Below are positions 40,980 through 45,451 of a stretch of DNA of 64,000 bases, in pieces (the stretch's first letter is position 1; each line of letters begins with the position of its first letter). Under the pieces are notes generated by a model, which made no database searches, had not been told where the DNA came from, and worked only from the letters and a program-made list of their open reading frames with translations. The position numbers and the translations under genes are program-made. The stretch comes from Planctomycetia bacterium (lineage in GTDB: Bacteria > Planctomycetota > Planctomycetia > Gemmatales > HRBIN36): assembly GCA_016795155.1 (NCBI GenBank), contig JAEUIE010000014.1:1-64000 (forward strand), read 5' to 3'.

Positions 40980-41963
40980 ATGGCAGTGACCACATTAAAG
41001 GCATACCTCATGGCGATTCCCGGACCGTTTCCTGAAAAGGCTGAGAAAGATACTCTGGTCGAGAACCAGATTCTATTTCAAATGCTGAAACCGCTGACTC
41101 AGGATGCACAATATGCATCCAGTAACTTTGCCGTCATGTATCTGCGTCCCACCCAGGCCAACTACGCTGGGTGGAATCTCGACAAGCCTCGTTTCAGCGC
41201 CAGTGTGCTGAAGAGTACGGTGCTGTATGCCGCCTACGAGTTGAGAAATCGAGCGAAGCTCGCTGCTCCGGGAATGAAAGCGGATGTCGTGCTGGGCAAT
41301 CTGGAAGCAGCGTGGAAGCCGATAGTTCAGCATGCCGTGGCAGGCCCGGCGAATTTCCCCAAACTTGCCGAAATCTTTGAGCCCTATACCAGCACGGTCG
41401 ACTTTCGAGATGATTTTCTTGCGGATTTGAAGAGCATGGCGACCTACTCGAACACCGAAGCATCGGGACGGGTGATTGCCAAACTGGGGCACCAGTACAT
41501 CAACGGCGTCTTGGCCAAGCAGGGACTTTATTCCAGGCAGAAAAGCGGGCTCTGGGTGGGAGGCAATTACAACCAGATTGCCTGGCATCCATCACCCGGA
41601 CACAGTTCGTACTATACTGCAACGCCGCGAGCACTCCTGCGATATCTCAATCTGCTCTACAACAATTCGCTGATCACTACAGAAGTTTCGAAAGAGATGA
41701 AATCAACCCTGGCTAACTTTTACTCGGAAAGAATCTGGACGAACACGCCGGGAGAGTATGACGATGCGAAATCTTACGGAAAGCTGGGCTGGGAGTATAT
41801 GAAAAACACCAAGATTAAGATCTTATATGATGCAGCGGTCATCGCCCGTACTTCGAGCAGCGGGAACTTTGACTACGGAATAGTCATCCAGGGACTTACG
41901 GCTTCGATATTTTCGAAACTCGTCGTGGAACTCGACAACATCATGGTGGGCTTTCACCCGTAA
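40980..41963 (+). CDS. Serine hydrolase resembling class A beta-lactamase/penicillin-binding fold
   Basis: 327 residues. A Ser-x-x-Lys motif occurs in PRFSASVLKSTVLYAAYELR, followed by helical sequence as in class A beta-lactamases; the element TATPRALLRYLNLLYNNSLIT resembles the TPR(D)LARLL region before the last domain, and KSYGKLGW resembles the K-x-G strand. No signal peptide is seen, which is odd for a cell-wall enzyme, and the family assignment is by pattern only. The start at 40980 has no clear ribosome binding site; a second ATG ten codons later (41010) is an alternative. Function unknown; hydrolysis of beta-lactams need not apply. Confidence 0.6.
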   Translation: MAVTTLKAYLMAIPGPFPEKAEKDTLVENQILFQMLKPLTQDAQYASSNFAVMYLRPTQANYAGWNLDKPRFSASVLKSTVLYAAYELRNRAKLAAPGMKADVVLGNLEAAWKPIVQHAVAGPANFPKLAEIFEPYTSTVDFRDDFLADLKSMATYSNTEASGRVIAKLGHQYINGVLAKQGLYSRQKSGLWVGGNYNQIAWHPSPGHSSYYTATPRALLRYLNLLYNNSLITTEVSKEMKSTLANFYSERIWTNTPGEYDDAKSYGKLGWEYMKNTKIKILYDAAVIARTSSSGNFDYGIVIQGLTASIFSKLVVELDNIMVGFHP

Positions 41964-42072: not shown

Positions 42073-42297
42073 CTATTGATCGATAGCAGTCAGCATGCAG
42101 TATTCACTACCGGCACAGTCAAAAATCAACCAGGCACGGATGAGGTCAGCATCGGTGGCATCCTGTTCGAGGATGATAGCGTCTTTCTGGCCATGGCGAA
42201 TCTCCACCGCCTGGTAATACCGGGCCATGAATCGACGAAGGAATGTAAGGAACGACGCAGAGAGATTGTCAGACTTCACGGTGATGCAAATGTTCAT
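42073..42297 (-). CDS. Small hypothetical protein, divergent from the polymerase gene
   Basis: The ATG at 42297 is preceded by GGAG at 6-8 bases (the upstream ATG at 42309 overlaps this site), giving 74 residues with a likely alpha/beta fold (MNICITVKSDNLSASFLTFL and AIILEQDATDADLIRAWLIF). No family is recognised. It shares the 178-bp intergenic region with the Y-family polymerase gene, so the palindrome at 42377-42392 could control both. Confidence 0.55.
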   Translation of the reverse strand: MNICITVKSDNLSASFLTFLRRFMARYYQAVEIRHGQKDAIILEQDATDADLIRAWLIFDCAGSEYCMLTAIDQ

Positions 42298-42360
42298 AAC
42301 TGTCTCCATGGGTACGAAGCAACTCTACTCCATGTTCACCAGGTGCTGTCAAGCATCTAT

Positions 42361-42396
42361 TTGATAAATGATGGCGTGTACACTACTATACATGTT
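42361..42396. promoter_or_regulatory. Candidate promoter with palindromic operator upstream of the polymerase gene
   Basis: TTGATA at 42361-42366 and TACTAT at 42384-42389 are spaced by 17 bases, a plausible -35/-10 pair. The -10 region overlaps TGTA-N8-TACA (42377-42392), which contains GTGTACAC at 42376-42383. The geometry resembles a repressor site such as that of a LexA-type regulator, but no planctomycete consensus was available, so the identity is inference. Confidence 0.4.
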
Positions 42397-42474
42397 AAAA
42401 TGTTCATATATCCCTTGTCTGTTCACTACTGAACTCTGCTACGATGAGCCGATAGAGCATGCGGAGGGACATTC

Positions 42475-43710
42475 ATGCCACTTCCATTCCGGGTCTACGG
42501 CCACGTTGATGTTGATGCGTTTTATGCGTCAGCAGCCCAGGTGCGCAATCCGTTCCTGATGGGTAAGCCGCTGGGTGTGCTGTCGAACCAGGCTTATTTT
42601 GTGATCGCCAAGAGTCTTGAACTCAAGAAGTATGGCGTGAAGACTGGTGAGCCATTGCCGGACGCTATCGCCAAGTGTCCACATGCCATTTTCGTAAAGC
42701 GGGACTTTGCCTGGTACAACGCGTTGAGTGACCGCTTCCACGCCTTCATGCGGAAAATGGTTTCTCCTGTTTGCGAAGAATACAGTGTGGATGAATGCTT
42801 CTTTGTGATGCCTCAGTATGAAGATGCCAGCACGTTTGCCGAGAAGGTGCGTGGGTTGGTGAAGAAGTATATCGGCCTGCCGGTGACGGTGGGATTGGGT
42901 CGTTCCAAGACTCTCGCCAAGCTCATTAGCGATACAGCTAAGCCCAATGGTGCGAAGGCGGTGCTGACGGAAGCGGAAGAGCATAAACTTCTGGGCAACC
43001 TGGCCGTCACGGAAGTTTCAGGCATTGCCGGGCGACGGGCCAGGAGAATGGAGCCTTACGGCATCAAAACATGTCTCGATTACATCAACACTCCCGTTGC
43101 GAGAATCCGACAGATACTCACTGTGGAAGGCGCCAAGCTCTGGAACGAGCTGCGGGGCGACCCGGTTTCGAAAGTACAGACAGAACGACAACGCTACAAG
43201 ATTCTCACCCGAGGCGGTTCCATTGGCAGTGCTACTAATAAACCTGACCGTGCCTGGGCTTTCGTAGTCAAGAACCTGGAACGACTAATCGAGGAGTTGC
43301 ATCGGCATCAACTCAAGACCGGCAGGGTTGAGTTTCATCTGGAGCAGCGTAGTTACGACTATCAGATGTATCATTTTGGAACCGGTTCCAACCTCGAAGC
43401 GCCAACAGATCGGTTTGATCTCTTGGTGGAAGTCTTCGAGCAGTTGTTCCGGCGTACCTATCAGAGACACTTACTGGTGTCGCGGATGCACTTGCTGGCT
43501 CACCGACTTGAATCTGCAGCAACTGCTCAACGGGGCTTGTTTGACCCGCCTGATGAGCCAGAACGAACACTAGCAGTTACCAAGAGGCGAATCAACACGG
43601 ATGTCAGCCGATTTGCGATTCGGAGCGGTGCCACCTTGCCTATTAAAGACTGGTATGACGACCCGGCCCTGGGCGAAGAGGCGATTGCTCCGCAAAGAAC
43701 GGTGTGGTAA
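42475..43710 (+). CDS. Y-family translesion DNA polymerase (UmuC/DinB-like)
   Basis: The start is fixed by GGAGGG at 42463-42468, six bases before the ATG. 411 residues. Catalytic motifs: DVDAFYAS (residues 12-19, metal-binding Asp12 and Tyr17 at the steric-gate position) and YSVDECF with Asp106-Glu107. The segment VLSNQAYFVIAKSLELKKYGVKTGEP is UmuC-like, followed by the helix-hairpin-helix region (VTEVSGIAGRRARRMEPYG) and the little-finger domain (LIEELHRHQLKTGRVEFHL). The C-terminal extension ends without a beta-clamp motif that I can recognise. The enzyme copies damaged templates with low fidelity. It is followed after two bases by the gene at 43713, so they form an operon. Confidence 0.88.
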   Translation: MPLPFRVYGHVDVDAFYASAAQVRNPFLMGKPLGVLSNQAYFVIAKSLELKKYGVKTGEPLPDAIAKCPHAIFVKRDFAWYNALSDRFHAFMRKMVSPVCEEYSVDECFFVMPQYEDASTFAEKVRGLVKKYIGLPVTVGLGRSKTLAKLISDTAKPNGAKAVLTEAEEHKLLGNLAVTEVSGIAGRRARRMEPYGIKTCLDYINTPVARIRQILTVEGAKLWNELRGDPVSKVQTERQRYKILTRGGSIGSATNKPDRAWAFVVKNLERLIEELHRHQLKTGRVEFHLEQRSYDYQMYHFGTGSNLEAPTDRFDLLVEVFEQLFRRTYQRHLLVSRMHLLAHRLESAATAQRGLFDPPDEPERTLAVTKRRINTDVSRFAIRSGATLPIKDWYDDPALGEEAIAPQRTVW

Positions 43711-43712
43711 CC

Positions 43713-44186
43713 ATGTGTGATGCGGTTTCAATCTCGCTGAAACATCTGCCGACGAAATACCATCACCATCCTGCGATCATAACCAGGGTGACAGGCCGTG
43801 GTGGCGAAGAAGAAGTGCAGTTCTACTACGACCGCAAGCCTTATCCGCCGCTGTTACCTATCGTGCTCGAGGATCAATTCCGCATAGTACGCTGGGGAAA
43901 TCGGCAGCGACGCAGTAAGGTGTTGCCCCATACAGGTCGGGTCGAAGTCTGGGAACTGGAGCAAGGCATCTGGCAGCATACCGATATTCAGGAGGTGCTG
44001 ATTACGGGCAATGCCGCCTTGCATCGCGGTGTCTGGTTCCCATTGCTGGAAGGCATCAAGGGAATCTATCTACGGGATGAACACGGTACGCCCACGGTAT
44101 TTATGTTGATGGACAAGCCCTCGGACTACTATGGTATCATGACCAAAAGCAAGGTGATGCCAGTCATCGTAGGGGATATTATTTAA
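43713..44186 (+). CDS. Met-Cys-starting protein co-transcribed with the Y-family polymerase (possible divergent SRAP)
   Basis: The ATG at 43713 follows the polymerase stop by two bases; the longer frame (43704) would overlap it. With this start the protein (157 residues) begins MCDAVSISLKHLPTK, so Cys is residue 2 after Met, as in the SOS-associated SRAP/HMCES family, whose Cys2 crosslinks to abasic DNA. Other features that may correspond: RIVRWGN (WG motif near residue 66), GIYLRDEHGTPTVFMLMD, and MTKSKVMPVIVGDII, which resembles the HdRMPviL end. The catalytic Glu and His of SRAP are not clear and the protein is shorter than usual. Assignment is therefore tentative, but context (translesion polymerase operon) supports a repair role. 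Confidence 0.55.
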   Translation: MCDAVSISLKHLPTKYHHHPAIITRVTGRGGEEEVQFYYDRKPYPPLLPIVLEDQFRIVRWGNRQRRSKVLPHTGRVEVWELEQGIWQHTDIQEVLITGNAALHRGVWFPLLEGIKGIYLRDEHGTPTVFMLMDKPSDYYGIMTKSKVMPVIVGDII

Positions 44187-44284: not shown

Positions 44285-45451
44285 ATGGATACACTGCCTG
44301 TCATCAGCTTGAAAATTGAAAGGCGTTCGTCGCATCCGTGGATCTTCCAGAAGATGGTGGAGAAGCCGATGCAGAAGCCGCCGCCCGGCACCATTGTGGA
44401 TATCGAAGACATCTCTGGCCAATGGGTGGGCCGTGGTTTTTACAATGGCCACTCGCGCATCAGCCTGCGTGTGCTGACATCGAATCGCGAGGAAGTCATC
44501 GATGCCGATTTCTTCCGCCGCAAGATCAGTCAGGCAGTTGCACTACGTCGGGAACTGCATCAACTCGATACCGTGACCAGTGCTTATCGGCTGGTTCATT
44601 CGGAAGGCGATGGCCTGAGCGGCCTGGTGGTGGATCGCTTTGGTGACATCATCGTGCTCGAGTTTTTCTCGGCAGGCATGTTCAAGTGGCGAAACACCAT
44701 CATGGAGATTCTTGCAGAGTTGTTCCCCGGCACATGTTTTTACTGGTTTGCTGAGGAGCATGTGCAGAAGCAGGAATCGTTTGACTGCTGGCCGCCTGAA
44801 CAGCCTGAGGGGGTGAACATTACCGAGCATGGGTTGCGATTCCGAGTGCAGCCCGGTGCCAAGCATAAGACAGGTTTCTTTGTCGATCAACGCGACAACC
44901 GCAATTACCTGACGCAGTTCACCGCGGGAAAAAAGGTGCTCGATATCTGCTGCAACACTGGTGGCTTTGCAGTCTATGCCAAGGCCAAGGGTAAAGCGGA
45001 GGAAACCATCGGTCTCGATCTCGATGAAGAATGCCTGGAGACAGCTAAACAGAATGCCAACCTCAACCAGGCACGTGTCCGCTTCGTGCAGACGGATTTG
45101 TACCCCTGGCTGCGTGATTCCATTGCCAGGCAACAGTTTTTTGATGTCGTCATTCTCGATCCAGCCAAGCAGACCCGCGATCGCGAAGGCATCGACGATG
45201 CACTCAAGCAGTATCTCGACATGAACCGATTGGCGATGCAGGTAGTGACTCCCGGTGGAGTTTATCTGACTTGTTCCTGCACCGGGTTAATCAACGAAGA
45301 TTTGTTTATTGACTGCATTCGACGATCAGCGTGGCAGGCAGGCCGCACACTGCAGATTTTTCATCTCAGTGGCGCCGGACCTGATCATCCTTATTATGCT
45401 CACGTTCGCGAAGGCCGGTATCTGAAGGCGGTGTGGGGGCGGTTGCTGTAG
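44285..45451 (+). CDS. rlmI: Class I SAM-dependent rRNA methyltransferase (RlmI-like)
   Basis: 388 residues. An N-terminal PUA domain (about 1-75, PPGTIVDIEDISGQWVGRGFYN) is followed by an RlmI-type middle domain (VHSEGDGLSGLVVDRFGDIIV) and a Rossmann methyltransferase: HKTGFFVDQRDNRNYL, KVLDICCNTGGFAVYA (motif I), IGLDLDEECLETAKQNA, and DVVILDPAKQTRD where the usual catalytic loop is DPP; the end LTCSCTGLINEDLF carries motif-like Cys residues. RlmI methylates a cytosine (C1962 in E. coli) of 23S rRNA at carbon 5. The replacement of the second Pro by Ala is mild. Begins 98 bases after the previous gene; could be read through. Confidence 0.88.
   Translation: MDTLPVISLKIERRSSHPWIFQKMVEKPMQKPPPGTIVDIEDISGQWVGRGFYNGHSRISLRVLTSNREEVIDADFFRRKISQAVALRRELHQLDTVTSAYRLVHSEGDGLSGLVVDRFGDIIVLEFFSAGMFKWRNTIMEILAELFPGTCFYWFAEEHVQKQESFDCWPPEQPEGVNITEHGLRFRVQPGAKHKTGFFVDQRDNRNYLTQFTAGKKVLDICCNTGGFAVYAKAKGKAEETIGLDLDEECLETAKQNANLNQARVRFVQTDLYPWLRDSIARQQFFDVVILDPAKQTRDREGIDDALKQYLDMNRLAMQVVTPGGVYLTCSCTGLINEDLFIDCIRRSAWQAGRTLQIFHLSGAGPDHPYYAHVREGRYLKAVWGRLL

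Follow-up and report, generated by a model that had tools for sequence, protein, structure and literature searches.

A small protein with a predicted SRAP fold and a largely lost active site, encoded beside a UmuC-like polymerase in planctomycetes

In the window, which is the whole stretch of 64,000 nucleotides that we analysed, the gene for a UmuC-like polymerase is followed by the gene for a small protein, here called mini-SRAP, which is probably a largely non-catalytic, SRAP-fold accessory subunit of that polymerase. The two genes would form a damage-induced translesion-synthesis operon, in which a short SRAP fold whose abasic-site-trapping active site has been largely lost would serve the polymerase as a dedicated partner. 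Mini-SRAP would thereby stand in the place held by UmuD' in Pol V or by YolD/YqjX in Gram-positive bacteria.

Organization of the locus

The features of the locus are listed below with their window coordinates, strand and basis.

42073..42309, minus strand: divergent 78-aa ORF, probably outside the cassette (without homologues)
42361..42389, plus strand: promoter-like TTGATA-17-TACTAT (sequence)
42377..42392, plus strand: operator-like palindrome TGTACACTACTATACA, overlapping the -10 element (sequence)
42420..42435, plus strand: second operator-like site TGTTCACTACTGAACT, 27 bases downstream of TGTACACTACTATACA (sequence)
42475..43710, plus strand: Y-family (UmuC/DinB-like) translesion DNA polymerase, 411 aa (Pfam, PHROG, catalytic residues)
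43528..43542, plus strand: QRGLF, polymerase residues 352-356, β-clamp-binding-like motif (motif position)
43570..43653, plus strand: RecA-N-terminus-like stretch LAVTKRRINTDVSRFAIRSGATL in the polymerase (tail alignment, by eye)
43657..43707, plus strand: diverged polymerase C-terminal end YDDPALGEEAIAPQRTVW (comparison with paired polymerases)
43713..44186, plus strand: SRAP-fold protein (mini-SRAP), 157 aa (AF2 model, Foldseek, residue mapping)

The original prediction had described this layout accurately. The polymerase ORF is intact, with Asp12 in the motif DVDAFY (from residue 12) and Asp106-Glu107 in SVDECF (from residue 104), and the 157-aa ORF starts at the ATG at 43713, two bases past the polymerase stop codon, with Cys2 in the sequence MCDAVS. 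The promoter-like TTGATA-17-TACTAT (TTGATA at 42361-42366, TACTAT at 42384-42389), overlapped by TGTA-N8-TACA, was also found where it had been placed; the second operator-like site, TGTTCACTACTGAACT, was absent from the original prediction. The polymerase matched the Pfam models IMS (E 2e-34) and IMS_C (E 2.4e-7) and the PHROG 1268 DNA polymerase family (4e-68), while none of the NCBIfam Pol IV/UmuC models matched above their cut-offs; with both IMS domains and the catalytic D and D-E residues present, it belongs to the Y-family. A third small gene had been proposed to read divergently from the same palindrome. This 78-aa ORF gave no family match above cut-off and had no homologue in 40 related genomes; it lacks support as a gene and was rejected as a member of the cassette.

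The gene upstream of the locus (40980-41963, plus strand) encodes a β-lactamase-like serine hydrolase (Pfam Beta-lactamase2, E 3e-8), and the gene downstream (44285-45451, plus strand) an RlmI-like 23S rRNA cytosine methyltransferase with a PUA domain, the match being below the NCBIfam cut-off.

Fold and active site of mini-SRAP

The small protein matched no model in Pfam, NCBIfam or PHROG, and the Pfam SRAP model (PF02586) recognized neither this protein nor any of 16 family members. Its AlphaFold2 model is confident (pLDDT, 90.9; pTM, 0.86), and a Foldseek search of the PDB returned as its top four matches 1zn6 and both chains (A and B) of 2f20, which are SRAP (DUF159) proteins, and 6oeb, recorded in the database as human HMCES. 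These four had probabilities of 0.97 to 1.00, with TM scores of only about 0.5 (0.49 to 0.56) and modest E-values (0.011 to 0.041) that limit the fold match, and the fifth match fell to a probability of 0.08. The model of a more remote, proteobacterial-type relative from a viral contig (L087; pLDDT, 82.5) found seven best PDB matches that were all SRAP proteins, including YedK-DNA complexes such as 6nua, and nothing further. A search of a viral structure library with the mini-SRAP model gave no convincing match. The family profile, searched against PDB sequences, hit β-lactamase inhibitory protein II (E 0.003), a weak, repeat-driven match over 43 residues that we dismissed as chance.

Profile comparison points the same way. 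The planctomycete family matched its proteobacterial relatives, which come from proviruses and plasmids, at 98.8 to 99.2%, and the joint profile of the two matched canonical SRAP at 66 to 90%; the Met-Cys/MCG at the N terminus, the WG of the core, the Glu and IHDRxP were all in register. On its own the planctomycete family reached only 2 to 10% against canonical SRAP, so that the proteobacterial bridge is needed; several of the proteobacterial relatives themselves match Pfam SRAP directly, if weakly and below the cut-off (E 0.0055 to 0.17). Taken as a prediction from models and profiles, the SRAP fold that had been proposed for the product of 43713-44186 is computationally established.

The chemistry expected of such a fold is another matter. 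In YedK the thiazolidine is formed by Cys2, and Glu105 ranks next in importance: crosslinking is severely slowed by E105A/Q and about tenfold by H160A (PMC9436759). Residue mapping of the window protein shows Cys2 in place, a His at the position equivalent to Glu105 and no equivalent of His160, in keeping with the doubt already voiced in the original prediction about a clear catalytic Glu/His. Its expectation of conserved Cys2 chemistry was not supported: of 35 planctomycete rows, 25 have Cys2 and 10 lack it, with at least six changes on the family tree, the Glu105 equivalent is acidic (Glu/Asp) in 18 and absent from 17, and His160 has an equivalent in a single member (L062) and none in the other 34. 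Members without Cys2 mostly still adjoin a polymerase (L007, L009, L011, L019, L061, L075 and L077). The constant core of the planctomycete family lies elsewhere, at Trp61-Gly62, Leu71-Pro72, Trp108, Gly114, Gly117 and Pro150. Loss of Cys2, Glu and His with retention of both core and pairing is the pattern that would be expected if the indispensable function were something other than covalent trapping. Cys2 and the acidic residue do occur together in 12 of the 35 rows, and, judged by these residues, reactivity toward abasic sites may persist in part of the family.

The same data bear on the idea that mini-SRAP is an active short SRAP whose Cys2 traps abasic sites, the polymerase extending beyond the lesion protected in this way. 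Such a trap would account for the fold, for the position next to a translesion polymerase, for Cys2 in the window protein and 25 of the 35 planctomycete rows, and for the invariance of Cys2, Glu and His in the proteobacterial viral-contig alignment. We nevertheless consider it unlikely, because the window protein lacks both the Glu105 and the His160 equivalents and because the 10 rows without Cys2 mostly keep their polymerase. Further, a canonical SRAP gene (L021, G000:C54:91422-91928) with intact NARVET, FLEW and IHDRMP motifs lies elsewhere in the same genome, so mini-SRAP is not that genome's only candidate abasic-site shield, and in several relatives a canonical SRAP gene lies right beside the cassette, within 3 kb (L002, L005, L016, L019 and L073). 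Of the abasic-site shield first proposed beside the polymerase, then, the fold and the pairing stand and the trapping chemistry is unsupported. With most of the active site lost, a role as a structural partner of the polymerase is likelier than one as a second abasic-site trap.

At two loci (L002:1501-2656 and L019), the polymerase, a degenerate mini-SRAP and a canonical SRAP follow one another on one strand as one putative operon.

Pairing with the polymerase

Mini-SRAP homologues were found in 12 of 41 related genomes, including the window's own, with best matches 29 to 39% identical, and in 14 of the 392 genomes that were taken from the phylum; they occur in named Gemmataceae and in other planctomycetes, and one IMG/VR viral contig carries a homologue. 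Remoter relatives are carried by plasmids of Methylophaga, Pseudomonas and Nitrosomonas and by 26 IMG/VR contigs, and the phage collection held none at E 0.01. The collection scan used a subset of the family alignment, the full 16-row alignment being too diverse.

The conserved pairing that had been predicted was confirmed. A polymerase lies within 100 bp of mini-SRAP at 28 loci and within about 400 bp at 4 more, directly upstream of it in most, and stop/start overlap is common among the pairs (gap of -1 in L052-L058). When the aligned C-terminal regions of the polymerases served as query against the same 41 genomes, strong matches were obtained in exactly the 12 that have mini-SRAP, and a 13th genome (G029) gave a partial match only (E 2.8e-4). 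Unstructured counting puts the probability of such co-occurrence at 1 in 8 billion, but since the genomes are related it amounts to concordance over some nine genera. A Methylophaga plasmid, with the gene order lexA, polymerase (polY), mini-SRAP, provides an independent parallel. In viral contigs L087, L089, L090 and L112 mini-SRAP is divergent from a UmuC-like polymerase, and in L089 and L090 a LexA/UmuD-like gene lies between the two.

Against a subunit role count the copies that have no adjacent polymerase, mostly second copies in multi-copy genomes (L006, L008, L014, L015 and L017), together with the Pseudomonas and Nitrosomonas plasmid homologues, which also have none next to them. The plasmid homologues would suit a protein that acts as a reader and not as a subunit, its cleft binding DNA junctions or damaged single-stranded DNA and recruiting or licensing the polymerase without a stable complex. 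SRAP proteins such as YedK and HMCES bind single-stranded DNA and 3' junctions, which also favours a reader, as does the invariance of the WG and neighbouring core positions. Strict co-occurrence with a single polymerase subfamily that has a special C terminus argues instead for a physical complex, and we regard the reader as rather improbable.

Two further observations concern particular members. The viral-contig and plasmid proteins of 140 to 150 aa (L087:5001-5456 and L088-L112), with the pattern MCGG...FMEKD...IHDRWP, keep the SRAP Cys2, Glu and His and fall below the Pfam SRAP cut-off in the five members tested; going by these residues, they are probably compact, active mini-SRAPs. One plasmid copy of the proteobacterial group (P0002) has a start without Cys2 as annotated. 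In one related genome (G026:C345) two homologues, L012 and L018, point toward each other across about 1 kb; both have a long low-complexity insert in the N-terminal part, and the surrounding stretch has no polymerase.

The special C terminus just mentioned is shared by the paired polymerases, in which QxxLF, a RecA-N-terminus-like stretch and, at the extreme end, YxDxxxxYDICDxxGKxCF follow in this order. The first element, QRGLF in the window polymerase and QLSLF in some relatives, is presumably a β-clamp-binding motif. The second (KxxINxKxGRFxxRSGATL) is kept in all paired polymerases of the tail alignment, its likeness to RecA being judged by eye and unscored, in comparison with E. coli RecA and UmuC and the RecA of the same genome. 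The CDxxGKxCF end, mostly as YDICDxxGKxCF, is present in 27 of the 28 paired polymerases compared. Since the extreme C terminus of UmuC binds UmuD' in Pol V, as stated in a 2026 survey (PMC12926913), our guess by analogy is that this tail may dock mini-SRAP.

The sole exception among the 28 is the window polymerase itself, which lacks the proposed docking site, and this too counts against a subunit role. A frameshift was ruled out as the cause, as no other frame encodes the tail. The window polymerase also shows the lowest identities to the other 27, and the branch of its partner (1.45) is among the two longest in the family tree. All three features would be expected if the window members were family outliers and the pair were drifting toward loss or a new function, an explanation we find very doubtful given that both ORFs and the polymerase active site are intact and that the partner is modeled with confidence.

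Regulation and relation to known systems

The subunit reading places the operon under damage control, and the upstream sites are suggestive in this respect. Within the window the joint pattern of TGTACACTACTATACA and TGTTCACTACTGAACT occurs only at these two sites, where 0.12 occurrences would be expected, the pattern having been drawn from these very sites. The half-site ASTGWAC was present upstream of 19 of 31 homologous operons compared with 1.6 in shuffled sequences, a count in which several upstream regions are near-copies and for which the half-site was chosen after looking. In the window's own genome ACTGTACAGT lies just upstream of lexA; no such site was found in the recA stretch scanned, nor upstream of any of 16 canonical SRAP genes. 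A genome-wide search with the operator pattern gave no excess over the reversed-pattern control and found sites beside genes without a clear SOS role. Two perfect copies of TGTNCACTACTGNACA (G000:C42:22539-22554 and C5:103185-103200) have nearby genes with no evident role in DNA repair. From these sequence patterns, LexA/SOS control of the cassette is plausible.

SRAP was defined by Aravind et al. in 2013, with operons containing UmuC, DinB and ImuB (PMC3765255). The main text of the 2026 survey of bacterial polymerases counts SRAP-like proteins as putative regulatory subunits that bind PolY and links a UmuC-like polymerase with a RecA-NT motif specifically to an SRAP-related group (PMC12926913). 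That module and the window cassette are probably the same or neighbouring groups, as far as the main text allows; it offers neither sequence detail nor taxa nor an analysis of the active site for the group, and in it we found no description of a degenerate active site, exact co-occurrence or a C-terminal tail, whereas the window family is described here with its catalytic degeneration and tail. The link between a UmuC-like polymerase and an SRAP-related protein has thus already been reported, and the present analysis adds the degenerate active site and the C-terminal tail. The cassette is most likely a variant of the type of module that the 2026 survey was the first to report, with a non-catalytic SRAP-fold partner.

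With the SRAP superfamily (PF02586; YedK, HMCES and YoqW) the window protein shares its fold, the N-terminal Met-Cys and the neighbourhood of a translesion polymerase, but it has 157 aa instead of about 220, lies below Pfam detection and lacks the Glu105 and His160 equivalents, and Cys2 is unconserved in its family. Pol V (UmuD'2C-RecA) and YqjW-YqjX/YolD resemble the cassette in that an error-prone Y-family polymerase adjoins a small partner, and Pol V and YqjW also have a RecA-NT-like motif at the polymerase C terminus. The window partner differs in its SRAP fold, which is neither an S24 peptidase nor a YolD fold, and in having no known autocleavage site. It gave no match to Pfam Peptidase_S24, and the only S24 protein found in the window's genome is a LexA, from which we infer that this genome has no UmuD. 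Standalone ImuB-C proteins, found with GeoPolY in Planctomycetes among others (PMC6511836), are likewise small partners of an active Y-family polymerase, with a domain unrelated to SRAP.

Carried further, the subunit reading leads to a planctomycete mutasome that resembles Pol V but is free of UmuD: an SRAP pseudo-enzyme would replace UmuD', dock on the dedicated polymerase peptide YDICDxxGKxCF and hold template junctions non-covalently in the former abasic-site cleft, a picture that is possible and that we put forward tentatively.

Nearly all discussion of SRAP proteins treats them as covalent traps for abasic sites. If a family has repeatedly given up the trapping residues and still retains both the fold and a translesion polymerase as partner, trapping and partnership would be separable, which would suggest that association with a polymerase is in itself a function of the SRAP fold. 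The C-terminal tail offers a short peptide with which docking could be tested, and mini-SRAP is a concrete candidate for the UmuD-like subunit that is missing in Planctomycetes.
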